64,000 nt of DNA, taken from assembly GCF_007922615.2 (NCBI RefSeq), contig NZ_CP042301.2:4696001-4760000 (forward strand), written 5' to 3'. The DNA is from Nitratireductor mangrovi (lineage in GTDB: Bacteria; Pseudomonadota; Alphaproteobacteria; Rhizobiales; Rhizobiaceae). Shown one piece after another: positions 1 through 52,238 of this stretch (positions are counted from its first letter, which is position 1; each line of letters begins with the position of its first letter). The position numbers and the translations under genes are program-made. The notes under the pieces were generated by a model. That model was given only the letters and a program-made list of their open reading frames with translations. It was not told where the DNA came from and made no database searches.

Positions 1-1
1 C

Positions 2-319
2 CGCAAGGCAATCTGGCCGCAATGGGTGCCGCCTCCCGAAATGCTCAAGCGCAAGCCGGATCTGCCGCGATTCGTGGCGGGCGGAGCGCCGAACAATCCG
101 CTCGGCCCACGCGCACTCTACCTCTATCGCGATGGGGCCGACCTCGGCTATCGCCTGCATGGCACGCTGGAGCCGTGGAGTATCGGGCAGGACGTTTCCT
201 CCGGCTGCATTCGCATGTTCAACGAGGACGTGATCGACCTCTACCAGCGCTGCCCGGTTGGCACTTTCGCGCAGGTTCTGCCCCACATTGCCGATCAGGC
301 GCCTCAGAAGAAGGGCTGA
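2..319 (+). CDS. L,D-transpeptidase (YkuD fold), C-terminal part
   Basis: The gene enters from the left edge, so only about 105 codons are visible. The end of a YkuD-type catalytic domain is clear: a His in RLHGTLEPWSIG followed by the SSGCIRM catalytic-cysteine motif and then NEDVIDLY. Enzymes of this family act in the periplasm, making 3-3 peptidoglycan cross-links or attaching envelope proteins to peptidoglycan. The stop lies 8 bases before an OmpA-like lipoprotein gene, so the two are probably cotranscribed and both act at the wall. The N-terminus and any signal peptide lie outside the window. Confidence 0.9.
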   Translation, partial: RKAIWPQWVPPPEMLKRKPDLPRFVAGGAPNNPLGPRALYLYRDGADLGYRLHGTLEPWSIGQDVSSGCIRMFNEDVIDLYQRCPVGTFAQVLPHIADQAPQKKG

Positions 320-327
320 CACGGTCC

Positions 328-849
328 ATGAAGATCGCATATCAACTTGCGCGCGCCGCCTGCATGGCGGGCGCGCTGTTTTTTCTGACCGCTTGCAGCA
401 CATCGAACACGCTCCAGACGGCCACGCCCGACGTTACCAACGCGCCGGCTTCCGGCTTCGCTGATATCGCGCCGGGGAGCGAGGAGGACTTCATCCTCAA
501 TGTTGGCCGGCGAACCTATTTCGCCGAGGGCTCGGCCACGCTGGACAGCACCGCCCGCTTCACGCTCGACAAGCAGATCGAATGGCTGAAGAAATATCCG
601 CATTGGCTGGTCAAGTTGCAGGGCTTCTCCGATGATCCCGGTTCCGATGCCGCGCAGGTCGACATTTCAGCTCGGCGAGCCGAAGCCGTGATGAACTACC
701 TGGCCGCGGGCGGGATTGATCGCAACCGCATGTGGGCCAAGGGGTATGGCAAGGAGCGTATCGTCCGCGACTGCCCGCAGAAGGCCTGCAAGGTCGCCAA
801 TCGGCGCGTCATCTCGAATCTGCGCGAGGAAAAGGACGGCGCGGCCTAA
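328..849 (+). CDS. OmpA-family peptidoglycan-binding lipoprotein
   Basis: This encodes 173 residues. A hydrophobic leader ends in the lipobox LTAC, putting the lipidated Cys at about residue 23. The rest is an OmpA C-terminal-like domain with FAEGSATLD, LQGFSDDPGS, ISARRAEAVMNYL and a final NRRV, the features that bind diaminopimelate in peptidoglycan. I chose the ATG at 328 because it opens directly into the signal peptide; an upstream in-frame extension would overlap the L,D-transpeptidase gene. The Pal-like architecture suggests an outer-membrane anchor. Its stop codon overlaps the stop of the convergent cyclase gene. Confidence 0.92.
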   Translation: MKIAYQLARAACMAGALFFLTACSTSNTLQTATPDVTNAPASGFADIAPGSEEDFILNVGRRTYFAEGSATLDSTARFTLDKQIEWLKKYPHWLVKLQGFSDDPGSDAAQVDISARRAEAVMNYLAAGGIDRNRMWAKGYGKERIVRDCPQKACKVANRRVISNLREEKDGAA

Positions 850-2615
850 CCCGCGTCGCCGACCTGCGCCTGGTCGGCCTCTGTTTGGCCGGCGGCGGGG
901 GCGCCTCCTCCGCTTCCGTGAAAGCCGAAAATCTCGATCGGTCGCGTTTTGCCTTTAACCTTGATGGGCGTGAGCTTGGCTGCGCGGCTCGCGAGTTTTT
1001 CGGGCAGCTCGTCCAGGACCTCGCGGGAGACAAGCGTTACCGCAGGGTCGGCATGCGAGCAAAGCCGCGCGGCCAGGTTGACGTGATCGCCAAGCACGGT
1101 GAAGTCCTTGCGCTGGCTGCTGCCCATCGCTCCGACCACGACCTCGCCGACATGGACGCCGATGCCGATCTGCAGGTCCGCGCCGGACTCACCCTCCATC
1201 TCGTCCATTGCCGTCATCATGGCGATCGCGCATTCGACCGCATGCTTCGCCATGCGCTGGCCGCCGAAAACGGCCATAATCTGGTCGCCAACATATTTGT
1301 CGATATCGCCATGATGCGCCACGACCAGGTCAGCCAGGCGCTGGAAGTAGCTGTTGAGGACGGCGACGACGACCTCGGGCTCCCGGTTTTCCGAAAAGGC
1401 GGTGTAGCCGCGAATATCGGCGAAAAGCATCGCCACCCGGCGCCGCTCTCCGCCAAGTGAAACAGTGCGCTCGTCGCTGCCCTGGATCGCCTTCATCGTT
1501 CCGAGCGAGACGAATTTCTGCAACTCAAAGCGTTCGTTCAACTGCACGATCATGTCGTTGAAGCGTCCTGCGAGATCGCCGATCTCGTCGCGCGAGCGCA
1601 CCCCTTCGACGCGAATGTCGAGATTGCCCTTGGCGATCTCCGTCGCAGCCGAGCCGATCCTCAGGATCGGCCGCGAGATGCCAAGCGCGAAAACGAGCGC
1701 TCCGGCAAGGGCAGCCGCCAATCCTATGGCGAGCCAGACGCCAAGATTGCGGATCATGTCCCATACCGGGGCGTATGCGTCGCGCTCGGCCTTCTCGACC
1801 ACAATCGCCCACGGGAATGCGCGCGGGATCGTGATGGCGCCGAGCGAAATGGAACCATCGGCAAGCGGGAAAGGCTCCACCGCGATCGTACCGGTGCGGT
1901 TGGCGAGCATGTCCAGCGCCTTCCGCTCGACGCTTTCATGACCATAGGCGCTGTCGGTCGTCGCGAAGACCACGGTTTTCTCGCTGTTCAAAACATGGAT
2001 GGTTCCAGTCCTCGCGAAGGGGTGGTGGGCGATGACGTTCTTCAGGCGCGCGAGATTGATGCGCGCATGCAGGACCGCAGTGCGGCCGCCGATCCCTTGC
2101 GGAACCGGCAGGCTGGCAACAGCCAGCCAGTCGCCGGTCTCACCGATATAGGCCAACCCGCTTGCCGCACGAGACGCTGTGGCATCAGCCCCCACCGCTT
2201 CTGATTCGACGCGCAGGATGTCCATCGGCGCTTCGAAATGCGCCTTGAGCTTGTTGAAATAGGCCTCCTGGGCAACGATGATCGGTCGTGGCAGCCCTTC
2301 TACGTCAACCTGCAATGCAACCACGTCCGGCAGGTCGGCGATACCCTGTTTCAGGATCACGATTTTTTCTTCGAAGCCAAGCTTGTCGCCGCCGAGCGAA
2401 TTGCGGATCAGGTCGAGTGGCGTGAACAGCGAATATTCGAAGAAATCGTTGAACTCGTCGGCCAACTGATTGGCGGTTGCCGCCAGTTGCTCGTTGGCGG
2501 CACTCTTGAGCTCGTCGCGCGCTACGCGGATGATCGACTGGCCGGCGACCAGCAGCGGCAGCGCCGCGATGACGGCGGCGAAAAGGAGCATCTTGCTGCG
2601 CAGGTTCAGCCGCAT
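846..2615 (-). CDS. Membrane adenylate/guanylate cyclase with periplasmic sensor and HAMP domain
   Basis: This encodes 589 residues. TM1 is at about 8-28, an extracytoplasmic Cache-like sensor at about 30-285, TM2 at 290-313, HAMP at about 314-367, and a class III cyclase domain from about 390 to the end. Catalytic residues are visible: metal ligands D400 (FADIRGYT) and D444 (KYVGDQ), K440, and the GDHVNLAARL block carrying N513 and R517. It should make cAMP or cGMP in response to a periplasmic signal. ATG 2615 is preceded by GGGGGA and leaves a 104-base gap to the PKD gene upstream; a GTG 60 codons earlier would overlap that gene. It is the last gene of the fecR-PKD operon. Confidence 0.93.
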   Translation of the reverse strand: MRLNLRSKMLLFAAVIAALPLLVAGQSIIRVARDELKSAANEQLAATANQLADEFNDFFEYSLFTPLDLIRNSLGGDKLGFEEKIVILKQGIADLPDVVALQVDVEGLPRPIIVAQEAYFNKLKAHFEAPMDILRVESEAVGADATASRAASGLAYIGETGDWLAVASLPVPQGIGGRTAVLHARINLARLKNVIAHHPFARTGTIHVLNSEKTVVFATTDSAYGHESVERKALDMLANRTGTIAVEPFPLADGSISLGAITIPRAFPWAIVVEKAERDAYAPVWDMIRNLGVWLAIGLAAALAGALVFALGISRPILRIGSAATEIAKGNLDIRVEGVRSRDEIGDLAGRFNDMIVQLNERFELQKFVSLGTMKAIQGSDERTVSLGGERRRVAMLFADIRGYTAFSENREPEVVVAVLNSYFQRLADLVVAHHGDIDKYVGDQIMAVFGGQRMAKHAVECAIAMMTAMDEMEGESGADLQIGIGVHVGEVVVGAMGSSQRKDFTVLGDHVNLAARLCSHADPAVTLVSREVLDELPEKLASRAAKLTPIKVKGKTRPIEIFGFHGSGGGAPAAGQTEADQAQVGDAG

Positions 2616-2719
2616 GCGGTCCCCCGGCCGAGGCAATTCCGGTGGTCCGGAAACGCCCGGAATTGCGACAGAACCAAATTCTGGATCGCCCAACCGATGC
2701 CATGAATCGCCCGAGCAAT

Positions 2720-5700
2720 CTAGTCCGCGAGCATCGACGAGGATTGCGACCGTGGCCCTGCCTCGATCGTGAGTTGATCGGTCGTTTCGCTGCACGCCAG
2801 GCCGTGATTGTCGTTCGTGGTCAGGGTGGCGATGTAGGTGCCAGGCTGATCAAACTCGACGCGGGCCTTTTCGCCGTCGAACTCAAAGCCGTTGGAGAGA
2901 CTCCAGTAGTGGCTGAGCGCATCGCCGTCCGCATCCGTGGAGCGACCCGCATCGAGCACGAGATTGTCATGCGCGCCGCCGATGAAGATATCGACATCCG
3001 GTCCGGCGTCGGCCACCGGCGCGGCATTGACGAAGACGTCGAACTCCTGGACCCCCGCCGCACACGCCGATCCCGAATTGTCCGTAGCCGTCAGGCGAAC
3101 GCGATAGGTACCCGGTTGCGAAAAACGGTGTGCGACCGAGGCGCCTTCCGCAGTGTCGCCGTCGCCGAAATCCCAGCGGTAGCTGTCGATTGCGCCATCG
3201 GCGTCGAAGGATTTGGTGGCGTCGAAGCCTAATTCGTGTCCGGGACAGGCCTTGCGCTCCGCTTCCGCGATCGCAACCGGCGGCCGGTTGACCACGATCC
3301 GCTTGGCAAGGGGTGTCATGACGGTTTGGCCCGCGCGCTCCAGCGTGCCTGAAACGCCGACGCTATAGGTGCCGGCACGGCGGTAGGCATGCCGTGTCGC
3401 CGCGCCGGCGGCCGTTTCACCGTCGCCGAACGACCATGCGATCGTCGCGGGATCGACGCTTTGCGGCAGGTTTGCCAAGCCGAAGTCCACCGCCTCGCCC
3501 GCACACGCGACGTCCGGCGAGGTGATCGCGGTTTTCGGGACGTCGGCGACGTCGACCCAGATCGCAGTCGTGCTGCTCTCGTTGGACAGGCCTGTGCCGT
3601 CCGAAACGGTAAGCGCGACGCGATAGCGGCCCGGCTGACGCCAAATATGAAGCACGTCCACGCCGCTCGCCGAGTTTCCGTCGCCGAAATCCCATTCATA
3701 GGCGGCGATGCCGCCGTCCGAGTCTTGAGACCCCGCGCCCGAAAGCACCAATGGCTGGTTGACCTCGACCGTCCGATCGCCGCCGGCATCGGCAATCGGG
3801 GCCGAATTGACGGTCAGGACGTGGGTGGTCGCGGCGCTTGCGCAACCACCCTGTTCCGCCGCGGTGTCGGCGCGCAACTGCACGTGATAGGTGCCCGGTC
3901 TTTCGAAAACGTGGCGAGCGACCGCGCCTTGTCCGGTCTCGCCATCGCCGAAATCCCAGAAGTAGCCACCGATGCGCGCGTCTTCGACATACGAGGTTGT
4001 GCCGTCGAAGACGACCTCCTCGCCGGCGGCCACCGCCCTCGGTGCCTGAATGACGGCGCGCGGTGCGCTCTGCACCGTCACTGTGATCTCGTCATCCGCG
4101 AGCGGCGAGCAGAAGCCCAGGTTGTCGCCCTCGATCTGCAAGGTGACGCGGTAAGTGCCAGCCTGTTCGAAGACGTGCTCTGGCCGGTCGCCGCCGCCGG
4201 TGCGGCCGTCGCCGAAGTCCCAGCTGAAACGGTTGACCACCCCGTCGATATCCGTCGACTTCGTGCCGTCGAACCGAACCGTGGTGTTGGCACATACCTT
4301 CATGTCCTCGCCCGCATCGGCGACCGGCGCCGGCAGGACGGTTGCCAGCAGCTCGTCGGTATGGCGATCGTTGGCAAGTCCCGATTCGTCCGCCACTTCA
4401 AGCTTCACCCGATAGGTGCCCGGCGTTTCGAACGTCTTCGTCGGGTTCACGATCTCGGCGGCATCACCGTCGCCAAAGTCCCATTTGTAGCGCAGGAGCC
4501 CGTTGTCGGGGTCGACGGAGGAACTGCCGTCGAACACGAGGACGTCCCCGACGCAGGCGCGCCGGTTGTCGCCGGCAGCGGCCGTCGGACGCCGGTTGAT
4601 CCGCACCGTCAGCGCATCACGCCCGGTGGAGTTGGCAAGCCCGCGCCCGTCATTGACCGTCAGCACTACCGGATAGATGCCGCCGGTCAGATAGGTGTGC
4701 TCGACCTGCGCTCCCTCCGCAATGTTGCCGTCCCCCAGATCCCAGAGGTAGGAAAGGCCGTCATTGTCGGCGTCGGCGGAAGCGCTTGCGTCGAGAACTA
4801 CCCGCAGCGCCTCGCTGAAGATGTCGCGTCCTGCCTCGGCCACCGGGGCATGGTTGACCTCGACGATGACCTCGTCGCTCGCCGTGCTGTTGGCCGCGCC
4901 GCTGTCGTCGGTCACGGTCAGCGAAATCGTGTAGATCCCCGGGTCGGCGAAGCTGTAGTCCACCTGCTCGCCGATGAGAATGTCGTCACTGGCCTGCACG
5001 TCCCATCGCCAGTCGGCGATGTCGCCATCTTTGTCCATGGAGCGTGAGGCTGAAAGCGTGAAGGACTGGCCGGGGGCAACCGAGATGTCCGGGCCGGCAT
5101 CGGCGACCGGAGGCGCGTTCACGGTGACGAGGATCTGCGAGAAGTCGGTGGCATTGTCGTGGCCGCTGTCGTCGCGCACTGTCAGTTCCACTGTATAAAG
5201 GCCCGGCGCGGCGAAGGCGTGCTCGACAATATCGCCTTCGGCTTGGGTCCCGTCACGGAAATCCCACGACCAGGTGGCGATCTTGCCGTCGGGATCGCTC
5301 GAACGGCGACCGTCGAACGTGATCGTTTCTCCCGGTGCGGCGACGATATCAAAGCCAGCATCGGCGACCGGGAGCGCGTTGACGCGTACGCTCATCTCGT
5401 CTTCGGCCGTGTTGCGGATGGTGCCTGACGCGTCTTCGACGACCAGTTTCACCCGATAGGTGCCCGGATTGCCATAGACGTGGGTGACCCGTTCTCCTGC
5501 GGCGGAACTGCCGTCGCCGAAGTCCCAAAGATAGCTGGCGATTCGCCCGTCAGGGTCGACCGATCTCGAAGCGTCGAACGTGACCGCGGAGGCGGTGACA
5601 TGCTGGTCCGGTCCAGCATCGGCGATCGGGGGTTCGTTGACGGTGATGGTGCGGATAGCGCTTGAGAGCCCGTCGGCGAGGCCGGAATCGTCGCGGATCG

Positions 5701-8700
5701 TCAACTGAGCACGGTAGGTTCCTGACTTCGCATAGGCATGCACGACCTCGCGTCCGCTCGCTCGTTCGCCATCGCCAAAGTCCCATTCATAGGAAAGGAT
5801 GTTGCCGTTGGGGTCCGAGGAACCGCCGCCTGAGAACCGGACCGGTTCGCCGATTGCCGCCGGGCGGTCGTCTTCGACCGCCGCCACCGGCACACTGTTG
5901 GGACGATCGCCGACTGTTACGATCAGGGTATCGATTGCCGAGGCATTGTTCTGCCCCGAACTGTCGGTCACTGTCAGAGTGACCTCGTAGCTGCCGGGCT
6001 CGAAATAGACGATCGAGCGCCGCTGACCGATTGCGCTTTTTCCGTTGCCGAAATCCCAATGGTAGGCGATGAGGTTGCCGTCGGTGTCCGACGAGGCCCC
6101 GCCGTCGAAATCGATCCTCTCGCCGACCTTCGCCGTGCGGTCGGGCCCTGCGACCGCAACCGGTGCGGTATTGCGCCGTTCTTCGACGAATACGACGAAC
6201 CGGTTCTCGCTGACGCCGTTCTCAAGGCCGGAATCATCAACCAGCGTCAGCTTGCCGAAGTAGGTGCCTGGCGTTGCATAGCTGTGTGCGATGACCGGAA
6301 CCTCGGCGCTGGTCCCGTCGCCGAAATCCCAGCGGTATCGAGTGACCTGCCCGTCCGGGTCGATCGCACCCGAGGCGTCAAAGACAGCGGCAATGCCGGT
6401 TTCCATCGTCAGTTCGGAGTGCAGGTCGATAACCGGCGCCTCGTTGTAAGGATGGGTCACGGTGACCGTGAAGCTGGCCTCGCTGACGGCGCCGCGCCGT
6501 CCTGAATCGTCGCGTACGAGAACACTCACGCGGTACTCGCCAGGCTTCTTGTACGAATGGCGGGCACGGAAGCCGGAGGCACGCGCGCCATCGCCGAAGC
6601 TCCACTCGACGGAGACGATGTTGCCGTCGCCATCGAACGTTCCGACCGCATCGAAGTCGAGCACCTCATTGACGAAAGCTGCGCGGTCGCCACCGACATG
6701 AACCACTGGCGATGCGTTGGCCGGATCGGAGACCACGACATCGAAGCTGGTGCTGGCCGAAGCGTTTTCCCTGCCGGAATCGTCCATGACGGTAAGCGTT
6801 GCCCGGTAGGTGCCCGCTGTGCGGTAGACATGATCGACCTGAATGCCGGCCGCGGTTGTACCGTCGCCGAAATCCCAACGGAAGGAGAGCAGCGACCCGT
6901 CCGGGTCGCGCGAACCCGACGCATCGAAGGCGGCTACCTCTCCGACGAGCACCTCGCGCTCGCCGCCACCTTCCGCGACAGGCGGCTCGTTGCCGGTCTC
7001 GACCACGGTCACGGTTCGGCGGATTTCCGTCGTGCCGTTGGAAAGCCCGGAATCGTCGGTGACCGCCAGGGTGACCTCGTAGGTACCAGCCTCCGCGAAG
7101 GAGTGACGCAACTGGGCCTTGTCACCGCTCGTGCCGTCGCCGAACGACCACGCATAAGCCGTGATCCGGCCATCCGGATCGAGCGCCGCGGAAGCATCGA
7201 AGTCGCCCGGCATGCCGGCGACAAGACGGCCCGGTGTTGTGACACCATCGGCGAGCGGTGGAGCGTTGACGAACACCCTGGCCATATCCTCGGCGACGCT
7301 GTTTTCGATGCCGCGACCGTCGTCCGCCTTCAGGCGAACCGTGTAGGTGCCAGGGTCGTCATAGCTATGCTCCGCCTTGGGCGTGTCTGCGCCCTTGCCG
7401 TTGCCGAAGTCCCAGGTGAAGCGATGATTGTCACCATCCACGCCGGTTTCAGGGCCGGCGTCGAAGACAATCTTCTCGCCGGTCGCGACCTTCAGGTCCG
7501 GCCCCGCATTTGCGACTGGAGGTGCGTTGACGTTGATTTGGGCGGTTTTGGTGTCGGTGTTGCAAGGGTGGCCGGCGGCGTCGGTGACGGTGAGTGTGAC
7601 GGTATAGGTGCCGTGCTTGCGGTAGGTGTGGCTCGGCATTCCGAAACCGGCCTCGCCGGCGGCCTGTTCGATCACGGTACCGTCGCCCATGTCGAAGCGG
7701 TAGTGCGAGATGCGGTTGCCTTCGGGCAGCGCCGGACTGGTCGAGCCGGTGGCGTCGAGCGTGAAGGCGGCGCCTTCGGCCACCAGCGCCGGCGCCTCGA
7801 GCGCGGCCACCGGCTTCGGCTTGACGAAGAAGGAGAATTCGCTCGCACGGCCATTGCCGACCAGTCCGGACGCGTCGAACACCTCCAGCCGGCCCTGCTT
7901 GACGCCGTCGCTGTCGAAGTCGGCGGTGACGGTCGCGCCCTCCAGCCAGTCGCCGTCAGCGCCCAGCCGCCAGCGGAAGGTGAGATCGCCGCCGTCCGGG
8001 TCGGTCGAGCCCGATGCATCGAAGCCGGTCTGCCGGCAGGCAAGCGGAGCGATCGACAGCGCGGTCTCGGGTCGCCGGTTGGGCGGGAAGGCGCGGATCG
8101 GCAGGGTGATCGCCACCGGCTGCCCGGCGGGATCGGCGCCATTGTCGGCAATGCCGGCAAACAGCGTCAGGTCGTTGGGGATCTCGCTGCCATTGGCCGC
8201 CGTCAGCGAGGCGATGCCGCCGGCCTCGCCCGGTTCGAGTGTGATCGTCTCACGCTTCCATTCGCTCTTGCCCGACGCCGCAATCGCCTGCGAGCGGAAG
8301 CGGCCGGCAAAGGCGAGCCTGCCGCCGGCGGCATCGAAGTTCTCCACCGCCAGGCTTGAGGCGCCCTCGGGCAGTTCCAGTCGAAGCTCGGCCATCTCGC
8401 GCCCGCGCGGCACCTGGAAGGTCGGCATGTAGGTGTAAAGCGACAGCCCGTCCGGGGCGCGGTTGGAGCCGTCCTCGCTGCTGACGGCGATGTCGAAGAC
8501 GTTGCCGTCATTACCGGCAAGACCCTCGACGGCAACGATGAAGCCGCGCCGGTTGCCTGCTTCCTCCGAGCCGCTTTCGGCATCGGCGGCAAACAGCGTC
8601 AGCCAGCGGTCGTCGGCTTCCTTGTCGGCGCCGAACTCCATTGCGCCCAGCGCCTCGCCGCTGACCGTCTCCTGCACGACCCCGTCATCGTCGCGCCAAA

Positions 8701-9094
8701 GCCGCGTCTGCGCGCCGTCGCCATAAAGGCTGAAGCGCACGCTCGTGCCGGCGCTGCCCTGCATCTCGTCATGCGCGCCGCCGGTGTCGGCGTCGAACAC
8801 CCGCACATAGACCCGACCCGCATCCGCCGGCACCGAAAACCGCAAAAGCTGCGAAAAGTCGTGGTCGCCCTCCTGACGAACCGCATCACTGCCAAACGTC
8901 ACAAGATAAGGATGGGCGGGATCGAGCAAACCGTTCTTTGCCAGCGCCACGATGCTCGGCAGGTGCCTGCGAATGGCATCGCCGTGCACGACCATGATGA
9001 TCGGCGCCAGCGCCGAAAGCATTCCCGCTACAAACAGCGCCGCATTGCGACGGAGCGGGGTGGCGAACAGGGCCCTCGCGAGAGGAGCGGTCAT
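2720..9094 (-). CDS. Giant PKD-repeat surface protein (2124 aa)
   Basis: A basic N-terminus and one hydrophobic stretch (about 20-36) look like an uncleaved signal anchor. Residues about 60-529 are nearly identical to the N-terminal block of the neighbouring 955-residue protein. The rest is an array of about 20 PKD-like beta-sandwich repeats, marked by recurrent WDFGDG, Y/HxY..PGTYxVxLxVxDxSG and NxPPVADAGPD. PKD arrays form extended rods or adhesive stalks in surface proteins. I see no C-terminal membrane segment, sorting signal or catalytic domain. The start ATG overlaps the upstream stop by 4 bases, so translation is probably coupled. The partner and ligand are unknown. Confidence 0.92.
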   Translation of the reverse strand: MTAPLARALFATPLRRNAALFVAGMLSALAPIIMVVHGDAIRRHLPSIVALAKNGLLDPAHPYLVTFGSDAVRQEGDHDFSQLLRFSVPADAGRVYVRVFDADTGGAHDEMQGSAGTSVRFSLYGDGAQTRLWRDDDGVVQETVSGEALGAMEFGADKEADDRWLTLFAADAESGSEEAGNRRGFIVAVEGLAGNDGNVFDIAVSSEDGSNRAPDGLSLYTYMPTFQVPRGREMAELRLELPEGASSLAVENFDAAGGRLAFAGRFRSQAIAASGKSEWKRETITLEPGEAGGIASLTAANGSEIPNDLTLFAGIADNGADPAGQPVAITLPIRAFPPNRRPETALSIAPLACRQTGFDASGSTDPDGGDLTFRWRLGADGDWLEGATVTADFDSDGVKQGRLEVFDASGLVGNGRASEFSFFVKPKPVAALEAPALVAEGAAFTLDATGSTSPALPEGNRISHYRFDMGDGTVIEQAAGEAGFGMPSHTYRKHGTYTVTLTVTDAAGHPCNTDTKTAQINVNAPPVANAGPDLKVATGEKIVFDAGPETGVDGDNHRFTWDFGNGKGADTPKAEHSYDDPGTYTVRLKADDGRGIENSVAEDMARVFVNAPPLADGVTTPGRLVAGMPGDFDASAALDPDGRITAYAWSFGDGTSGDKAQLRHSFAEAGTYEVTLAVTDDSGLSNGTTEIRRTVTVVETGNEPPVAEGGGEREVLVGEVAAFDASGSRDPDGSLLSFRWDFGDGTTAAGIQVDHVYRTAGTYRATLTVMDDSGRENASASTSFDVVVSDPANASPVVHVGGDRAAFVNEVLDFDAVGTFDGDGNIVSVEWSFGDGARASGFRARHSYKKPGEYRVSVLVRDDSGRRGAVSEASFTVTVTHPYNEAPVIDLHSELTMETGIAAVFDASGAIDPDGQVTRYRWDFGDGTSAEVPVIAHSYATPGTYFGKLTLVDDSGLENGVSENRFVVFVEERRNTAPVAVAGPDRTAKVGERIDFDGGASSDTDGNLIAYHWDFGNGKSAIGQRRSIVYFEPGSYEVTLTVTDSSGQNNASAIDTLIVTVGDRPNSVPVAAVEDDRPAAIGEPVRFSGGGSSDPNGNILSYEWDFGDGERASGREVVHAYAKSGTYRAQLTIRDDSGLADGLSSAIRTITVNEPPIADAGPDQHVTASAVTFDASRSVDPDGRIASYLWDFGDGSSAAGERVTHVYGNPGTYRVKLVVEDASGTIRNTAEDEMSVRVNALPVADAGFDIVAAPGETITFDGRRSSDPDGKIATWSWDFRDGTQAEGDIVEHAFAAPGLYTVELTVRDDSGHDNATDFSQILVTVNAPPVADAGPDISVAPGQSFTLSASRSMDKDGDIADWRWDVQASDDILIGEQVDYSFADPGIYTISLTVTDDSGAANSTASDEVIVEVNHAPVAEAGRDIFSEALRVVLDASASADADNDGLSYLWDLGDGNIAEGAQVEHTYLTGGIYPVVLTVNDGRGLANSTGRDALTVRINRRPTAAAGDNRRACVGDVLVFDGSSSVDPDNGLLRYKWDFGDGDAAEIVNPTKTFETPGTYRVKLEVADESGLANDRHTDELLATVLPAPVADAGEDMKVCANTTVRFDGTKSTDIDGVVNRFSWDFGDGRTGGGDRPEHVFEQAGTYRVTLQIEGDNLGFCSPLADDEITVTVQSAPRAVIQAPRAVAAGEEVVFDGTTSYVEDARIGGYFWDFGDGETGQGAVARHVFERPGTYHVQLRADTAAEQGGCASAATTHVLTVNSAPIADAGGDRTVEVNQPLVLSGAGSQDSDGGIAAYEWDFGDGNSASGVDVLHIWRQPGRYRVALTVSDGTGLSNESSTTAIWVDVADVPKTAITSPDVACAGEAVDFGLANLPQSVDPATIAWSFGDGETAAGAATRHAYRRAGTYSVGVSGTLERAGQTVMTPLAKRIVVNRPPVAIAEAERKACPGHELGFDATKSFDADGAIDSYRWDFGDGDTAEGASVAHRFSQPGTYRVRLTATDNSGSACAAGVQEFDVFVNAAPVADAGPDVDIFIGGAHDNLVLDAGRSTDADGDALSHYWSLSNGFEFDGEKARVEFDQPGTYIATLTTNDNHGLACSETTDQLTIEAGPRSQSSSMLAD

Positions 9095-11958
9095 TTTGCG
9101 CCATCCTCAACTTCGCCGTCCGAGACGATCACCGTGACGCTGTCGTCGGCTGACAGGGGCGTGTCGCCGTCATCGGTCACGGTGAGCCGCACGGTGAACG
9201 TGCCACTGTCGTGGAAGGCGTGTTGCGGCCGGGCTTCGGAGGAGCGGCCGCCATCGCCAAAATCCCAGGCATAGTCGAGGATGTTGCCGTCCGGATCGGC
9301 AGAAGCCGAGCCGTCGAAGCGCAGGATTTCGCCCCGCGTCGCCGTCATCGACTGGCCGGCATCCGCGACCGGCGGTTGGTTGGGGCGGGGCCTGACCGTG
9401 ATCTCGACGCTGTCTTGGGCCGACAGCGGCTCGACGGGACCGTCGTCGGCTACGGTCAACGATACCCGGTAGGTGCCGGGAAACTGGTAGACGTGGCGCG
9501 CCTTGATTCCTGAGGATCGGTTGCCGTCACCCAGATCCCAAGTGTAGCCGAGAATGCTGCCGCCGGGATCGCTGGAGCGCGCCGCGTCGAAGACCACCTC
9601 GTCGCCGGCGATGACCTCGGCTGGCGCTTCGATGGTGGCGGTGGGCCCCTGATTGGGTTTGTCGGCGACAATCACCGCGAAGTCGAAGGAAACCGTTTGC
9701 GGCTCCGGCAGGCCATTGTCGGCGAGCGTCAGACGTCCCTGGTAGGTGCCGGGAGCGGCGTAGAGATGCTCGACTACCGGGCCCATGCCCGTCGTGCCGT
9801 CGCCGAAATCCCAAGCGTAAAGTACGACCGAACCATCACGGTCACTGGCCGCGCTGGCGTCGAGCCGTAGCGGCCGGAACGTGTTGACGGAGAACTCGGC
9901 CGGAAAGGTCGCCACGGGCTGCCGGTTCTCGGCGGGAATGACGGTGATGATCGCCGAATCGACGGACTGTCCGTTGGCGCTGGCGCTGTCGTCGTCGACG
10001 GACAGGCTGACCGCGTAGATACCCGGCTCCCAGTAGGTGTGCTCGACCACCGGCAGGTCGGACCCGGTCCCGTCGCCGAAATCCCAGCTATAGTGCAGAA
10101 TCTCGCCGTCTTCGTCGATGGAGCCGGTGCCGTCGAACCGTAGTGGCGCACCGGCCTCTACAGTCCGATCGCCGCCGACGTTGGCAACCGGTCTCTGGTT
10201 CGGGGCGTCCTCGACGGTGACGAAGATCGTATCGATGCCCTTGCCGCTCTCGAAAGCCGAGTCGTCGAGGACTGTCAGGCGGACCGTGTAGGTGCCGGGA
10301 TAGTGGTAGGCATGGTCGATCACGGGCGCGGCCGAGTTGGTGCCATCGCCGAAATCCCACAGATAGGAGACGATCGTCCCGTCGGGATCATGCGACAGCC
10401 GGGCATCGAATGCGTGGATTTCTCCGGTCGTTATGCGCCGGTTCCGTCCAGCATTTGCGACTGGAGGTGCGTTGACGTTGATTTCGGCGGTTTTGGTGTC
10501 GGTGTTGCAAGGGTGGCCGGCGGCGTCGGTGACGGTGAGTGTGACGGTATAGGTGCCGTGCTTGCGGTAGGTGTGGCTCGGCATTCCGAAACCGGCCTCG
10601 CCGGCGGCCTGTTCGATGACGGTACCGTCGCCCATGTCGAAGCGGTAGTGCGCGATGCGGTTGCCGTTGGGCAGCGCCGGACTGGTCGAGCCGGTGGCGT
10701 CGAGCGTGAAGGCGGCGCCTTCGGCCACCAGCGCCGGCGCCTCGAGCGCGGCCACCGGCTTCGGCTTGACGAAGAAGGAGAATTCGCTCGCACGGCCATT
10801 GCCGACCAGTCCGGACGCGTCGAACACCTCCAGCCGGCCCTGCTTGACGCCGTCGCTGTCGAAGTCGGCGGTGACGGTCGCGCCCTCCAGCCAGTCGCCG
10901 TCAGCGCCCAGCCGCCAGCGGAAGGAGAGGTCGCCGCCGTCCGGGTCGGTCGAGCCCGATGCATCGAAGCCGGTCTGCCGGCAGGCAAGCGGGGTGATCG
11001 ACAGCGCGGTCTCGGGTCGCCGGTTGGGCGGGAAGGCGCGGATCGGCAGGGTGATCGCCACCGGCTGCCCGGCGGGATCGGCGCCATTGTCGGCAATGCC
11101 GGCAAACAGCGTCAGGTCGTTGGGGATCTCGCTGCCATTGGCCGCCGTCAGCGAGGCGATGCCGCCGGCCTCGCCCGGTTCGAGTGCGATCGTCTCGCGC
11201 TTCCATTCGCTCTTGCCCGACGCCGCAATCGCCTGCGAGCGGAAGCGGCCGGCAAAGGCGAGCCTGCCGCCGGCGGCATCGAAGTTCTCCACCGCCAGGC
11301 TCGACGCGCCCTCGGGCAGTTCCAGTCGAAGCTCGGCCATCTCGCGCCCGCGCGGCACCTGGAAGGTCGGCATGTAGGTGTAAAGCGACAGCCCGTCCGG
11401 GGCGCGGTTGGAGCCGTCCTCGCTGCTGACGGCGATGTCGAAGACGTTGCCGTCATTGCCGGCAAGGCCCTCGACCGCGACGATGAAGCCGCGGCGGCCG
11501 CCGGCTTCCTCCGAGCCGCTTTCGGCATCGGCGGCAAACAGCGTCAGCCAGCGGTCGTCGGCCTCCTTGTCGGCGCCGAACTCCATTGCGCCCAGCGCCT
11601 CGCCGATGACCGTCTCCTGCACCACGCCGTCATCGTCGCGCCAAAGCCGCGTCTGCGCGCCGTCGCCATAAAGGCTGAAGCGCACGTTCGTGCCGGCGCT
11701 GCCCTGCATCTCGTCATGCGCGCCGCCGGTGTCGGCGTCGAACACCCGCACATAGACCCGACCCGCATCCGCCGGCACCGAAAACCGCAACAGCTGCGAA
11801 AAGTCGTGGTCGCCCTCCTGACGAACCGCATCACTGCCAAACGTCACAAGATAAGGATGGGCGTTACCCATCTCTTGCGCACCGGCGGTCGTCGTGACGG
11901 CGCCGGCGAGCAGCAGCGCGGCCCTGTACATGTCGCGTTTTCGGAAACTGCCGGTCAC
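9091..11958 (-). CDS. PKD-repeat exported protein (955 aa), paralogue of the giant one
   Basis: A short basic start and hydrophobic segment ending near TTAGAQ look like a cleavable signal peptide. Residues about 32-502 form a block that matches the giant protein without gaps: an uncharacterised beta-rich N-terminal region plus two divergent PKD-like units. Five clear PKD repeats with WDFGDG or WDLGDG cores follow to the C-terminus. The start overlaps the stop of the FecR/LysM gene by 4 bases and its stop overlaps the next start by 4 bases. All three proteins are therefore probably made together and may assemble on the surface. No enzymatic motif is seen. Confidence 0.92.
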   Translation of the reverse strand: MTGSFRKRDMYRAALLLAGAVTTTAGAQEMGNAHPYLVTFGSDAVRQEGDHDFSQLLRFSVPADAGRVYVRVFDADTGGAHDEMQGSAGTNVRFSLYGDGAQTRLWRDDDGVVQETVIGEALGAMEFGADKEADDRWLTLFAADAESGSEEAGGRRGFIVAVEGLAGNDGNVFDIAVSSEDGSNRAPDGLSLYTYMPTFQVPRGREMAELRLELPEGASSLAVENFDAAGGRLAFAGRFRSQAIAASGKSEWKRETIALEPGEAGGIASLTAANGSEIPNDLTLFAGIADNGADPAGQPVAITLPIRAFPPNRRPETALSITPLACRQTGFDASGSTDPDGGDLSFRWRLGADGDWLEGATVTADFDSDGVKQGRLEVFDASGLVGNGRASEFSFFVKPKPVAALEAPALVAEGAAFTLDATGSTSPALPNGNRIAHYRFDMGDGTVIEQAAGEAGFGMPSHTYRKHGTYTVTLTVTDAAGHPCNTDTKTAEINVNAPPVANAGRNRRITTGEIHAFDARLSHDPDGTIVSYLWDFGDGTNSAAPVIDHAYHYPGTYTVRLTVLDDSAFESGKGIDTIFVTVEDAPNQRPVANVGGDRTVEAGAPLRFDGTGSIDEDGEILHYSWDFGDGTGSDLPVVEHTYWEPGIYAVSLSVDDDSASANGQSVDSAIITVIPAENRQPVATFPAEFSVNTFRPLRLDASAASDRDGSVVLYAWDFGDGTTGMGPVVEHLYAAPGTYQGRLTLADNGLPEPQTVSFDFAVIVADKPNQGPTATIEAPAEVIAGDEVVFDAARSSDPGGSILGYTWDLGDGNRSSGIKARHVYQFPGTYRVSLTVADDGPVEPLSAQDSVEITVRPRPNQPPVADAGQSMTATRGEILRFDGSASADPDGNILDYAWDFGDGGRSSEARPQHAFHDSGTFTVRLTVTDDGDTPLSADDSVTVIVSDGEVEDGAK

Positions 11959-14414
11959 AGCGAGAACTCCAGGCTGTTCGTGTTGCCGGCGACGTCTGCC
12001 AACTCGACCTCAAGCTTGACGTCGCCCTCGCTCCCACCGGAGGGGAGTTCAACGGAGCCGAGATAGGATTTGCGAGCCCTGTTATAGCGCAACACCCCCT
12101 CGCGCGCGCCGGAAGGCCCGCTGAGCCTGACCCTGGCGGTCTTTGCGAGGCCGGTGCCGTCGCGAGCCTCGATACGCATCGTGACCACCTGTCCCGTCCC
12201 GCGCTGTTCCACCGCGATCTCGTTGGCGGTCATTTCCGGGCTGAGCGAGTCACGGATCACCCGTCGTTTTTCGATGCTGACCAAGCCAACCGGATTGGTC
12301 GCCACGATCTCGATCTGGTTGGGGCCTTCGGCAAGTTCGATCGTAAAGCCGATTCCGGACACATCGGGCGTTCCGGGTTTGCCATTGACGCTGTAGCGTG
12401 TCCCGGCCTCTGCCGCGATCGCCAGGTTGAGCACAGGCTCGGCTGTCACCGCGGGCACAGGCCGGTCGAGGGCGATCACCGGCGGGCGATGGCGGATGCC
12501 GGCGTTGATGGCCTCCTCATATGCGTAGCCGGATGCCGTGGTGACGCTCAGCGCAAGTTCCTCGTCTGGCGAGAGCAGCGGGACGTTGAGCGCGAAGCGG
12601 CCTTCAGCGTCTGAATAGGTTTCCGAACGCAAGGTGCCGGCGATGTCGCGCACGGTGATGCGAGCCTGGCTGGCGGCTGTTCCCGACAGTGTGAGCTGGT
12701 CCGTCGCGGTCAGGAACCGGCCGCTCTCGTCGCGCGGCAGGCTTTCGTCATAGGCGATCTCGCGCCGCGCATCGGCCATGTAGGCGAAGGCGACGGTGCG
12801 GACCGTCTCGTTGCCGGCCACATCGCGCGCGGTCACGCTGATCTCGTTGACGCCCTCCTCGGCAGTGACGGTGAAGAAATAGCGCCCGTCTCGGTCGACA
12901 TCTGCGGCAGCATTGCCGACGAACACCGCCGCTCCAGCCTCCGTTTCGCCGGAAATCGTCACCTGAGCCTCGCGCAGAACGGCGCCGCCTTGCGGTGTCC
13001 TGATGCGCAGGAAGGGCGGCAGGTCGTCGGTGCGCACCTCGAACTTGCGCGCGATGCTCATGGGGCCACGCAGACCAACCGCGTCGAGCGCCGCCACGCG
13101 CCAGAAGTAGGTGCCCGGCGGCAGGTCGAGATCATCGAGGCTGGTGCCGGAAATGCCGGTACGGCTGTCAGCCATGCGGTCGAAGCGGGGATCGTGGGCA
13201 AGCTCGAGCCAATAGGCCGACGCGTCGATGGCGAGCCAGGATAGACGGACATTACCGGTGAACAGGACGTCGCCATCCTGGGGCTGATCGAGCGTTACGC
13301 GGTCGATGACGGCGATCTTCCGGTCAGGACGTTGGCCGGTGCCGACGACCGCGCCCTCGTTGCGGCCGAGCACAAGCGTCTCGTCACCGGCGATGATCGC
13401 GACCGGCTTCACATCATAGTTGGAGAACTTCGCGCCGCTTTCGTCCTGGCTGACCCAGAAACTGCCGGAATCGATCTTGGCCTCGACATTGGGCAGGTTG
13501 ACTTCGAGCCGGTTGCGGTTGCTCTCGGTGGCGAGCAGGGCATAGAAATCGCCCTCGACGAGGCTGATCTGCGCTTCCTCGCGGCGCTTGAGCGGATCGA
13601 CGCGCATCCGCTGGATCACGGCCTGCGAATTGGCATTGAGCCGTAGCCGGCTTGCATCGCGGAACACCACCTGCGCGGTCGAACTCGACAGCGTGCGCAG
13701 TTTTTCCTGCTCGTTGAGGATCGCATTGAGTTCGCGTTCGCTCCAGCTGTTCTCGCTGGTTTTCTGTCCCTCCACCCAGCCTTGGCGGTCGCTCAGCCGC
13801 GCCTCGGCCTCCACGTCGCGTCGCTGCTCGCTGGTGGTCCGCGCCGCCTCGGCGCGATTGATCGACTTCGACGAGAGCGCGATGCTTTCGTGGTAGATGC
13901 CGTCGCGGTTCTCCAGAACCGCCTGATCGCGGAACTCGATCGCATTCCGGATCAGGATCGGCGCGAAGAGTTGCGCACCGGCCTCGTTAGCCTTCTGGAT
14001 TTCGCCCAGCGAAGCCTCCAGCGCGGAAGCCGCCAGTTCAACCTGGGAACCGGGGAGGCGGAGCTCCTGGCCGAGAGCGATAGTGGCGATGTCGTCGATG
14101 CCGTTGAGCCGCAGGATGATCGGCCAGAGGTCCGGGTCGTCGAGATGTTGCGCTGCCAGGCTGCGCAAGCTCATTCCGGCTTCGAACCGGACGGTCACGA
14201 AACCTTCGTCCGCAGCCGGCGGGACGGGAATATCGACGATGGCTTGTGCCTGTAGCGGCGCGCACAACGCACCCGAAACGGCGACACACGCCACCAGGCG
14301 CGACAGAACGCTGGCGCACCGCAGACCCGTGCGACGATCTCTCTCAGGAGCGTCGCCGATTTTCAGGACCGGCGTAGTAATCAATCCCACCCACGCAACG
14401 CGCCGACACCACAA
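11955..14414 (-). CDS. Exported LysM-FecR-Ig-like protein
   Basis: About 800 residues. After a signal peptide ending APLQAQA comes a LysM-like module (about 70-125: GMSLRSLAAQHL, WPIILRLNG, GQELRLPG), expected to bind peptidoglycan. Then follow a charged, probably helical linker, a FecR domain (about 240-345: VVFRDASRLRLNANS, LVEGDFYALLA, SGSFWVS), an FnIII-like unit with GTYFWRVAALD, and several Ig-like repeats. FecR domains without a sigma-factor or TonB partner are common in surface-structure loci. The start is uncertain: TTG 14414 is the longest, with GTG 14390 and TTG 14384 as alternatives, and none has a strong ribosome site. It is the first gene of the operon. Confidence 0.88.
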   Translation of the reverse strand: MWCRRVAWVGLITTPVLKIGDAPERDRRTGLRCASVLSRLVACVAVSGALCAPLQAQAIVDIPVPPAADEGFVTVRFEAGMSLRSLAAQHLDDPDLWPIILRLNGIDDIATIALGQELRLPGSQVELAASALEASLGEIQKANEAGAQLFAPILIRNAIEFRDQAVLENRDGIYHESIALSSKSINRAEAARTTSEQRRDVEAEARLSDRQGWVEGQKTSENSWSERELNAILNEQEKLRTLSSSTAQVVFRDASRLRLNANSQAVIQRMRVDPLKRREEAQISLVEGDFYALLATESNRNRLEVNLPNVEAKIDSGSFWVSQDESGAKFSNYDVKPVAIIAGDETLVLGRNEGAVVGTGQRPDRKIAVIDRVTLDQPQDGDVLFTGNVRLSWLAIDASAYWLELAHDPRFDRMADSRTGISGTSLDDLDLPPGTYFWRVAALDAVGLRGPMSIARKFEVRTDDLPPFLRIRTPQGGAVLREAQVTISGETEAGAAVFVGNAAADVDRDGRYFFTVTAEEGVNEISVTARDVAGNETVRTVAFAYMADARREIAYDESLPRDESGRFLTATDQLTLSGTAASQARITVRDIAGTLRSETYSDAEGRFALNVPLLSPDEELALSVTTASGYAYEEAINAGIRHRPPVIALDRPVPAVTAEPVLNLAIAAEAGTRYSVNGKPGTPDVSGIGFTIELAEGPNQIEIVATNPVGLVSIEKRRVIRDSLSPEMTANEIAVEQRGTGQVVTMRIEARDGTGLAKTARVRLSGPSGAREGVLRYNRARKSYLGSVELPSGGSEGDVKLEVELADVAGNTNSLEFSL

Positions 14415-21917: not shown

Positions 21918-23315
21918 TCAGATGTGGAGGGCATGGCCCAGCGTCCTCAACGCGCTTTCCTGCACCGCCTCGGAAAGGGTCGGATGGGCGTGAATGGTCT
22001 GCGCGATGTCCTCCAGCCGGGCGCCCATCTCGATCGCGTGCGCGAAATAGGACGACAGTTCGGAAATCTGCGCGCCTACGGCTTGAATGCCGATGACGAG
22101 ATGGTTGTCGGCTCGTGCCACGATCCGTACGAAGCCGTCCTCGCGCCCGAGCGTCATCGTCCGCCCGTTGGCCTGAAACGGGAAGATCGCGCTGCGCGCG
22201 TCGATCCCCGCCTCGGCAGCTTCCTCCGGCGAGAGGCCTGCTGACACGATTTCGGGGTCAGTGAAGCACACTGACGGGATGCATTGACGATCCCAGGCGC
22301 GCCTCTTGCCGGCGACGATCTCGGCCACCATCTCCCCTTGCGCCATAGCGCGATGGGCCAGCATCGGTTCGCCGGTGACGTCGCCGATGGCGTAGACGCC
22401 GCGCATCGAGGTGCGGCAATGCTCGTCGATCGCGATATGGCGTCCGTCCATTGAGAGATCGAGTTCCTCGAGCCCCCAGCTTTCGGTCGCGGGTTTGCGG
22501 CCGACGGTGACGAGAACCTTGTCGGCACTGACGGTGTCGGATTTCCCGTCGCCGTTCGAATAGGAAAGCGTCTTCGCGCTTTCCGAATAGCGTTCGGCCT
22601 TCACGCCGGTGAGCACCGTGACGCCGAGCTTTTCCAGCCGCTTGCGGACCGGCTTGGTCAACTCCTCGTCGTAGAGCGGCAGGATGCAGTCCATCGCTTC
22701 CAGCACGGTGACCTCGGCCCCGAGCTTGGCGAATGCGGTGCCCATCTCAAGACCGATATAGCCGGCACCGACGACTGCGAGCCGTTTCGGCACGGTCGTG
22801 AGTCCGAGCGCTTCGGTCGACGAGATCACGTTGCCGCCAAAGCCGATGCCGGGAAGTTCGACCGAAGTCGATCCCGTGGCGATGACGATGTTGTCGGCTT
22901 CGATCGTCTGCATGCCGGTCTGCGTCTCGACGCGTACTGTCTTGCCGTCACGAAAGCTGGCCCAGCCGTCGACATGCTTGACGCCTGCCTTCTTTAGAAG
23001 GCCGCTGACGCCATTGGTGAGCCGGCGCACAATCCCGTCCTTCCACTCAACGGTCCTCGCAAGCTCGATCGCCGGCTTTTCAGCGCGGATGCCGAGCGCC
23101 GAGCGGCCGGCGGCGTAGTCAGCCAGCCTGGCATGTTCGTCCGCGGCGTGGATCAGCGCCTTCGACGGGATGCAGCCGACATTGAGGCAGGTGCCGCCCG
23201 GCTTCTTGGCCTCTACGATGACGGTGTCGATGCCGAGCTGTCCGGCGCGGATGGCGCAGACATAGCCACCCGGTCCAGCGCCGATCACGAGCAGTTGGCA
23301 CTTGATGTCTCTCAT
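21918..23315 (-). CDS. lpdA: Dihydrolipoyl dehydrogenase (E3) of the branched-chain 2-oxoacid dehydrogenase complex
   Basis: This encodes 465 residues. FAD-binding VIGAGPGGYVCAIRAGQLG opens the protein, followed by the redox-active disulfide in GGTCLNVGCIPSKALIH, the NAD-binding VVGAGYIGLEMGTAFAKLG, the second FAD motif VYAIGDVTGEPMLAHRA, and the C-terminal interface HAHPTLSE with the catalytic His. It reoxidises dihydrolipoamide of the E2 subunit, reducing NAD. ATG 23315 lies four bases after the E2 stop; a longer upstream in-frame start would run back into the E2 gene. As the last gene of the bkd operon it is probably dedicated to that complex. Confidence 0.96.
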   Translation of the reverse strand: MRDIKCQLLVIGAGPGGYVCAIRAGQLGIDTVIVEAKKPGGTCLNVGCIPSKALIHAADEHARLADYAAGRSALGIRAEKPAIELARTVEWKDGIVRRLTNGVSGLLKKAGVKHVDGWASFRDGKTVRVETQTGMQTIEADNIVIATGSTSVELPGIGFGGNVISSTEALGLTTVPKRLAVVGAGYIGLEMGTAFAKLGAEVTVLEAMDCILPLYDEELTKPVRKRLEKLGVTVLTGVKAERYSESAKTLSYSNGDGKSDTVSADKVLVTVGRKPATESWGLEELDLSMDGRHIAIDEHCRTSMRGVYAIGDVTGEPMLAHRAMAQGEMVAEIVAGKRRAWDRQCIPSVCFTDPEIVSAGLSPEEAAEAGIDARSAIFPFQANGRTMTLGREDGFVRIVARADNHLVIGIQAVGAQISELSSYFAHAIEMGARLEDIAQTIHAHPTLSEAVQESALRTLGHALHI

Positions 23316-23319
23316 CCCG

Positions 23320-24645
23320 TCATTCCTCGATGAAGATCGACGCCGGTGTTTCCAGGAGCGCCTTGATTCGCTGCACGAAGACCGCCGCATCCCAGCCGTC
23401 GATGATGCGGTGATCGAAGCTCGACGACAGGTTCATCATCCTGGTCGGCACGAACTGGGCGCCGTCCCAGACCGGCCGCACCTGCATCTTGTTGACGCCG
23501 ATGATGGCCACCTCCGGATGGTTGATCACCGGCGTGGTCGCGATCCCGCCGAGTGCGCCGAGCGATGTGATGGTTATGGTCGAGCCGGACAGTTCCTCAC
23601 GTGTCGCCGTGCCGTCCCGCGCCGCTTCCGCGAGACGCTGGATTTCGGCCGCGCACGACCACAGGTCGAGCGTTTCGGCATGCCTCAGCACCGGGACCAC
23701 AAGGCCATTGCGCGTTTGCGTGGCGATGCCGACGTGAACGCCACCATGCTGGTGCACAACGCCGGCGTCGTCATCGTACAGCGAATTGAGGTTGGGCTGC
23801 TCGCGGATGGCGCGCACCATAGCGAGCACGAGGAATGGCATCAGGGTCAGCCGCGCCTGGTCGTCGCGCTTCTTCTTGTTGAGCGTGGCGCGCAAATCTT
23901 CCAGCGCGCCCATTTCGACCTCGTCGACATAGGTGATGTGAGGGATGCGCGATTTCGCCAGTTGCATCTTCTCGGCGATCTTGCGCCGCAAGCCGACGAC
24001 CTTGAACTCGGTCACGCGGTTGTCAGGTGCGCGGCCGACGCCCTCGCGTGGGCGGTGACCGGCTTCGAGATGCAGGTCGAGATCTTCGTGGGTGATGCGC
24101 CCGGCCGGCCCGGTTCCACGCACATACCGCAGGTCGACTCCGGCTTCGCGGGCGCGCAGCCTGACCGCCGGCGAAGCGAGCGGTTTTTCGCCTTCCTTGC
24201 GCGATTGCGCCGGCAGGCTACGCTGGTCCTTGGGCGGCGGCGAGGTCTTTTCCTTCTGGTCCCGCGAAACCGGCTTTTCATCCGTTTCCGGCTTCGGCGT
24301 CGCCTTTTCAGGTTCGCGCGGCGCCGATTCCGCGCCCTTTTCCTCGGGCTCTTCGGACTTCGCCGGCTTTGCCTGTGGGGCCGCGTCACCCGCATTGCCT
24401 TCCCCGGCAACCTCGATGCGCAGCAGCGGCGCGCCGACGGCGATTTGCTCGCCGACCTCGCCGCCAAGCCACGAGACCGTGCCTTCGACGGGCGATGGGA
24501 TTTCGACGGTCGCCTTGTCGGTCATGACCGCGGCCAGCACCGTATCCTCGTTGACCGGGTCGCCGACCTTGACGTGCCACTCGACGAGTTCTGCCTCGGC
24601 AATGCCCTCGCCGACATCCGGCATCTTGATGACGTGCTGGCCCAT
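23320..24645 (-). CDS. bkdB: Lipoamide acyltransferase (E2) of the branched-chain 2-oxoacid dehydrogenase complex
   Basis: This encodes 441 residues: a lipoyl domain at about 1-80 with the lipoylated Lys in MTDKATVEIPSP, a charged Pro/Glu/Lys-rich linker to about 160, a peripheral-subunit-binding domain (PAVRLRAREAGVDL...GPAGRITHEDL), and a catalytic acyltransferase core ending with DHRIIDGWDAA, where His and Asp are catalytic. The E1 pair next door identifies the complex as branched-chain rather than pyruvate type. It sits one base after the E1 beta stop. Confidence 0.94.
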   Translation of the reverse strand: MGQHVIKMPDVGEGIAEAELVEWHVKVGDPVNEDTVLAAVMTDKATVEIPSPVEGTVSWLGGEVGEQIAVGAPLLRIEVAGEGNAGDAAPQAKPAKSEEPEEKGAESAPREPEKATPKPETDEKPVSRDQKEKTSPPPKDQRSLPAQSRKEGEKPLASPAVRLRAREAGVDLRYVRGTGPAGRITHEDLDLHLEAGHRPREGVGRAPDNRVTEFKVVGLRRKIAEKMQLAKSRIPHITYVDEVEMGALEDLRATLNKKKRDDQARLTLMPFLVLAMVRAIREQPNLNSLYDDDAGVVHQHGGVHVGIATQTRNGLVVPVLRHAETLDLWSCAAEIQRLAEAARDGTATREELSGSTITITSLGALGGIATTPVINHPEVAIIGVNKMQVRPVWDGAQFVPTRMMNLSSSFDHRIIDGWDAAVFVQRIKALLETPASIFIEE

Positions 24646-24646
24646 C

Positions 24647-25660: not shown

Positions 25661-25661
25661 C

Positions 25662-26945
<1,284 letters not shown>

Positions 26946-48730: not shown

Positions 48731-48801
48731 AGGCCATGCGCAACGACGATCATCTGACACCCGAGACTGCAGTTTCTGGCGGGATTTCCGGAGAGCGGGA
48801 C

Positions 48802-51264: not shown

Positions 51265-51564
51265 TGGCCGTGGTGGTCGCGCCATCGCGAAGCCCGGGAT
51301 GTCCAGCCGTCTCCGGCAGGCGCATGCGCGCGGCAGCGTTAACAAGTGTTAAACCAATGCATGCGAATCCTTGCTGGGCAGGGATTGGCGAGGACGGCGC
51401 CAAAGGCATGACGCCGCTCCCGCACTCCGGTTTTCCCGGGATGAAGATCATGGACAGGCGGCTTTCCGGCGTCGCGCGGCCTGCGCGCAATGCTCCGGCA
51501 ACGACTGTCGCCGTCCGTGGGCGGGGCGAGACCCGAACTGTGGGGCATTGAGGGGAATGGGCAA
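51265..51564. other. Intergenic region between the chemoreceptor and STAS genes
   Basis: These 300 bases contain no convincing gene on either strand. GTTAACAAGTGTTAA near 51338 shares the word GTTAACAAGT with the region at 47284 upstream of the binding-protein gene. An internal promoter for the che genes could lie here. No terminator-type hairpin was found. Confidence 0.4.
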
Positions 51565-51852: not shown

Positions 51853-51853
51853 G

Positions 51854-52219: not shown

Positions 52220-52238
52220 AAACCCGGAGAACGTGCCA

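Follow-up and report, generated by a model that had tools for sequence, protein, structure and literature searches.

A four-gene FecR/PKD/dCache-cyclase module of Nitratireductor mangrovi as a candidate envelope-sensing system

Alphaproteobacteria of the kind to which Nitratireductor mangrovi belongs are rich in class III nucleotide cyclases, the inputs of which are, to our knowledge, mostly unknown. A 64,000-nucleotide stretch of its genome (assembly GCF_007922615.2, contig NZ_CP042301.2, positions 4,696,001–4,760,000; referred to hereafter as the window) raises the question of what one such enzyme might be reading, in that a membrane cyclase closes a run of four co-directional minus-strand genes (window positions 846–14414) whose other products are a FecR-domain protein and two proteins with arrays of PKD repeats, PKD-S and PKD-L. 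We find that these four genes behave as an all-or-none module, which names candidate upstream partners for one class III cyclase, and we give about even credence to the idea that the set is a dedicated envelope-sensing module signaling via cyclic AMP (cAMP).

Distribution and linkage of the four genes

The association was examined in two draws of genomes (in some of these genomes, scoring covered only a part of the first-look candidates). Within the order, 199 genomes were screened by three separate queries, namely the PKD head domain (E ≤ 0.001), the sensor part of the cyclase (E ≤ 1e-20) and FecR (E ≤ 1e-8), and each query hit the same 6 genomes, the window's included, from 6 genera. At the level of the class (289 genomes; head at E ≤ 0.001, sensor at E ≤ 1e-12), head and sensor again coincided, in the same 2 genomes; one is that of the window and the other, G231, also carries FecR. 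The initial annotation had treated the FecR protein, both PKD proteins and the cyclase as one unit, and the survey bears this out, none of the three components having been found alone among the 199 order genomes. Named carriers comprise Aquibium, Mesorhizobium L-8-3, Flavimaribacter, Pararhizobium and several Rhizobiaceae, and a full-length sensor match was present in all 17 carrier entries (the window among them; one genome is entered twice, as G172 and G204).

Three of the six order genomes (G026, G114 and G144) are incomplete drafts with the cyclase on a separate contig, and in G026 the head is represented by a fragment (query residues 9–76) at the end of a contig; within this draw, linkage is thus shown only for the other three. 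Wherever the locus lies on a single contig, gene order and strand are kept as FecR–PKD(–PKD)–cyclase (11/11 loci: the window, L021, L023, L024, L025, L026, L027, L030, L043, L049 and L066). A three-gene form, FecR–one 1620-residue PKD protein–cyclase, is plasmid-borne in Skermanella mucosa and recurs in G231. Component identity to the window falls to 35–73% across two clades (a main clade, which includes the window, and a distant one) and this three-gene version, with the set kept throughout. Because the flanks are unconserved beyond close relatives, and homologues of the OmpA and L,D-transpeptidase genes that adjoin the module in the window are absent there, we regard the module as a unit of patchy distribution that is possibly transferable.

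The strands and sizes first assigned to the four genes are confirmed, as are the 4-base overlaps that join the first three (FecR/PKD-S at 11955–11958, PKD-S/PKD-L at 9091–9094); the cyclase starts 104 bases beyond PKD-L. Export-type leaders are present on the FecR protein, PKD-S and PKD-L. The features of the module, all on the minus strand, are as follows:

11955..14414, minus: module gene 1, exported protein of 819 residues with LysM-like, FecR and immunoglobulin-like (Ig-like) parts; the start codon (TTG at 14414) is uncertain
9091..11958, minus: PKD-S, 955 residues, with export-type leader, head domain and 7 PKD repeats
10939..11886, minus: PKD-S head domain, residues 25–340, two predicted β-sandwiches
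10451..11863, minus: homogenized tract, PKD-S copy (head and PKD repeats 1–2)
9130..10983, minus: PKD-S repeat array (7)
2720..9094, minus: PKD-L, 2124 residues, with hydrophobic N-terminal leader, head domain and 20 PKD repeats
7973..8941, minus: PKD-L head domain, 96% identical to the PKD-S head
7506..8918, minus: homogenized tract, PKD-L copy
2765..8038, minus: PKD-L repeat array (20)
846..2615, minus: dCache–HAMP–class III nucleotide cyclase, 589 residues from the likely ATG

Repeat arrays and heads of the PKD proteins

All 27 matches to the Pfam family PKD_4 in the 4.86 Mb genome fall within these two proteins (20 stretches in PKD-L, 7 in PKD-S). Counting with a profile built from the window's own PKD repeats (E ≤ 0.01), we observe the same numbers in every complete gene of the main clade, 7 repeats in 9/9 PKD-S and 20 in 9/9 PKD-L proteins, with one PKD-L dropping to 19 at the stricter E ≤ 0.001. 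(The complete-gene counts leave out L022_L and L048_L, cut by contig ends, L045_L, of doubtful end, the cut PKD-S genes of L020 and L028, and the fragment L029.) A wider search with the head domain, limited to lengths of ~525–1671 residues and hence without PKD-L types, gave 42 proteins including the window's: 18 with 7 repeats, 15 with 15 repeats and 9 with some other count. Of the last group, several are evidently fragments, and P0032 and P0039 (13 and 10 repeats) may be true exceptions to the constant number. Skermanella and G231 each have a single PKD protein, of 15 repeats. In the distant clade, PKD-S has 6 repeats in 3/3 cases and PKD-L varies: 19 in L043, 16 in L045 (where the gene stops early, close to the end of its contig) and, in L048, at least 25 (open at a contig end). 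Constancy as a general rule is therefore rejected by the distant-clade PKD-L counts; it holds for the main clade and for most 15-type proteins.

Positional comparison of individual repeats informs on the age of these arrays. Between the window and 7 other main-clade genomes, repeats L3–L20 find their best match at the same gene and position in 125/126 comparisons and S3–S7 in 33/35, such position-matched repeats being 42–78% identical as against a mean of ~40% within the window's own array. This excludes a separate duplication in each lineage for the main clade, and we take the arrays to be old, stable and individually constrained because their repeats match their own positions across genomes. 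The matching largely breaks down against the distant-clade member L043, and we confine the claim of positional orthology to the main clade accordingly; within the 15-repeat set, repeats match their own position in 153/210 cases. That the main-clade arrays keep both the number of their repeats and the orthology of repeats by position argues that a repeat array can be under length selection. A PKD unit is ~4 nm long, at which spacing 7 and 20 repeats would make rods of roughly 28 and 80 nm; the longer is too long to stand upright in the periplasm, which favors surface exposure or a lying orientation, neither of them proven.

The heads appear to have a different history. The two PKD genes of the window are 98.1% identical over 1413 nucleotides, encoding the mature head and repeats 1–2 (~470 residues after the leaders), and beyond this tract give only brief or weaker alignments; this near-identity was absent from the initial annotation. 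The PKD pair of Mesorhizobium sp. L-8-3 has a tract of like length and position (1434 nucleotides, 95.9%), which disfavors an assembly artefact as its source. In 10 other PKD-S/PKD-L pairs, the proteins are 44–58% identical across the tract region. A tree of the head domains does not resolve S and L as two groups (8 label changes are needed): S and L are joined with strong support within the pairs of the window, L-8-3, L025 and L045, whereas in L022/L023, L024/L027/L030 and L043/L048 the S heads group together, as do the L heads. Repeats 1–2 likewise cross-match between the genes (own-gene best matches in 6/14 cases for S1–2 and 8/14 for L1–2). Since the later repeats show a single old S/L split, recurrent gene conversion of the head would be the simplest reading of these sequences. 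Homogenization confined to the head amounts to a natural experiment, and suggests that both heads share a binding partner.

Structure prediction renders the PKD-S head as two β-sandwiches (mean predicted local distance difference test score, pLDDT, 87); the head has no Pfam family at E ≤ 0.1. Matches of the predicted heads by fold are generic, with carbohydrate-binding-module (CBM)-like and lectin-like folds among others (the structure alignment leaves out L025 S, which has undetermined residues, and the Skermanella row).

The cyclase, the FecR protein and comparable systems

The cyclase has an ectodomain of tandem Cache type, with a dCache-like predicted fold, between two transmembrane helices, followed by HAMP and a catalytic domain (Guanylate_cyc PF00211, E 3.3e-28) with conserved catalytic motifs; among the matches of the sensor model, many are receptors for small ligands. 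The genome contains 20 matches to the class III catalytic domain. One of these (G000:C1:3022389–3022799) has an in-frame TAG and is a possible pseudogene.

The FecR protein begins with a LysM-like segment, followed by the FecR domain (PF04773, E 2.6e-12 in the window protein and found in 12/12 family members) and Ig-like domains; its orthologues are 45–61% identical to the window protein, that of Skermanella 39%. The initial annotation's assignment of LysM is weak: Pfam gives no LysM match in the window protein and one at E 0.005 in 1/12 family members; the family profile does match two PDB chains over the segment, one from a phage baseplate protein (8kea_J, E 9e-7) and one labelled a LysM protein (9gtp_P, E 0.04).

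FecI–FecR–FecA is an iron signaling system that has the FecR domain (PF04773) in common with the module. We found no extracytoplasmic-function (ECF) sigma factor or TonB-dependent receptor in the module or its immediate neighbors (OmpA, YkuD, luciferase-like), the genes further out being partly annotated. Contact between FecR and FecA is mentioned in the accessible part of a study of Sinorhizobium meliloti (PMC5498481), which also describes the FecR gene smc02177 as a target of cAMP/Clr that is dispensable for plant-signal perception. SMc02177 resembles our FecR protein as a predicted non-cytoplasmic FecR-domain protein linked to cAMP signaling in a rhizobium; it differs in that the gene there is a cAMP target, and neither a PKD protein nor a dCache cyclase adjacent to it is mentioned in the same part of the study.

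Another likeness lies in the Campylobacterota, where a survey reports, in the part accessible to us, gene clusters that unite a CHASE2 cyclase with a FecR outer-membrane protein, a TPR protein and a phosphodiesterase, and proposes a single pathway (PMC9239204). Both arrangements place a cyclase (class III here, class III or other adenylate cyclases there) beside a FecR envelope protein and a repeat protein. The module differs from the clusters as that part presents them in having dCache instead of CHASE2 and PKD arrays in the place of TPR (no TPR match by Pfam in the four module proteins), and in that no phosphodiesterase was identified among its conserved genes, the flanking genes being only partly annotated. 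CHASE2 is absent from the module cyclase; the genome's only match to it, at 2790450, belongs to a second FecR locus (G000:C1 ~2786695–2792171; L065 6696–12172), in which a FecR–TPR protein (1227 residues) adjoins a CHASE2 class III cyclase (611 residues). This locus shares with the module adjacent, co-directional genes for FecR, repeats and a class III cyclase, and differs in uniting FecR and TPR in one protein, in its CHASE2 sensor and in having no PKD; the two cyclases align only over the catalytic domain. It is a sister design of the PKD module. Among 61 order genomes, 41/93 FecR matches lie ≤5 kb from CHASE2, and 38/78 CHASE2 matches have FecR that near (raw counts).

Because FecR/CHASE2-cyclase pairs are both published and present in the same genome, we regard a FecR envelope protein, a repeat protein and a membrane cyclase as a known theme, of which the module is a PKD/dCache variant. 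The four-gene set is described in no paper found by our literature searches (judged by titles and abstract openings), and the rod-bearing PKD version of the pairing seems undescribed; the initial statement that no characterized system has this exact set thus holds within the literature searched, with the qualification that FecR–cyclase pairing itself is published, as far as the accessible part of PMC9239204 goes.

Readings of the module and its surroundings

We infer the contact, location and signal of the module proteins, and on the envelope-sensing reading events would run as follows. The FecR protein would lie on or near peptidoglycan and form a scaffold with the PKD rods, whose two-sandwich heads would have one partner or glycan as their shared target; the degree to which this assembly is occupied, under tension or intact, or a ligand brought in by it, would then alter the dCache sensor, which would signal through HAMP to cAMP synthesis. 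Several points tell against this scheme. Direct binding of small molecules is common in dCache domains, and given this habit the cyclase may not read the FecR and PKD proteins at all. Pairwise identities of the module parts correlate (r 0.90–0.99, 9 genomes), a congruence expected from joint inheritance alone and no proof of contact. A separate wider search returned 486 sensor homologues at E ≤ 1e-20, among which lone sensors outside the drawn genomes may exist. The product is presumably cAMP, adenylyl over guanylyl activity being assigned from residues; and in none of 14 loci does a Clr-type (cAMP receptor) box occur in the ~600 bases ahead of the FecR gene, so that no feedback is visible. 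The constancy of the repeat numbers suggests a ruler-like role in which reach counts, in preference to variable display. Taken further, rods of set length (7 plus 20 repeats, or 15), with heads kept alike by recurrent conversion, would gauge the spacing or tension between the wall and a further layer or surface and report it through the dCache cyclase as cAMP. Such a receptor, if real, would be a cyclase of a hitherto undescribed kind, mechanosensing or gauging the envelope; we consider it unlikely, the more so since the distant clade does not keep its repeat number constant.

A tentative alternative inverts the roles, making the FecR/PKD assembly the output, as a glycan-binding fibre or envelope scaffold, while the co-transcribed dCache cyclase senses an independent small ligand and tunes the same behavior via cAMP. 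The CBM- and lectin-like matches of the two-sandwich heads and the small-ligand receptors matched by the sensor model are consistent with this, as is the cAMP/Clr control of smc02177, which plant-signal perception does not need, in the accessible part of PMC5498481. The missing Clr box counts against it too, and a shared behavior would not require so tight a bond as the all-or-none one seen between the sensor and the exported proteins. PKD arrays are common in surface proteins, and the lectin-like head (by fold) and the varying distant-clade PKD-L (19 and at least 25 repeats) would also suit an ordinary adhesin or surface-fibre locus, with arrays exported to the surface and a mechanistically unrelated cyclase. 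We think this improbable, as a cyclase orthologue is present in every module genome examined and the main-clade repeats are constant in number and orthologous by position, in contrast to the repeat turnover often seen in adhesins; nor is there a secretion gene among the four, which, with no C-terminal anchor apparent by eye, also leaves the wall-anchored surface fibre of the initial annotation unsupported. Joint horizontal transfer without shared mechanism, as in a selfish operon, would accommodate the patchy distribution (6/199), the plasmid copy in Skermanella and the unconserved flanks, and is in our estimate very improbable, given that two clades and the three-gene version keep the set despite their divergence and that the genome draws yielded no component alone.

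Two plus-strand genes converge on the module in the window:

328..849, plus: OmpA-family lipoprotein (Pfam OmpA, E 1.2e-17), start corrected to 328, judged outside the module
1..319, plus: 3′ part of an L,D-transpeptidase (YkuD, Pfam E 3.8e-14), truncated at the window edge (219 residues when complete), judged outside the module

Both had been counted as parts of the system, a proposal that we reject: no homologue (E ≤ 1e-4) was found in the relatives' flanks searched (~1.5 to 14 kb downstream of the cyclase and 1.3 to 10 kb upstream of FecR), nor in L049 and L066, and by this sequence comparison the two are probably chance neighbors. No accessory gene is conserved in the module flanks beyond close relatives. 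Downstream families common to 4–5 loci are ABC-transporter and short-chain dehydrogenase open reading frames by eye, at varying positions, and most other shared flank groups come from two close trios, L024/L027/L030 and L034/L035/L037, that represent one and the same set of three genomes. Elsewhere in the window lie genes for E1 alpha, E1 beta, E2 and E3 of a 2-oxoacid dehydrogenase, which Pfam assigns to the branched-chain type (21918–26894), and chemosensory genes (48727–54434) encoding an 845-residue methyl-accepting protein and a CheA-type kinase with Hpt and CheW domains.
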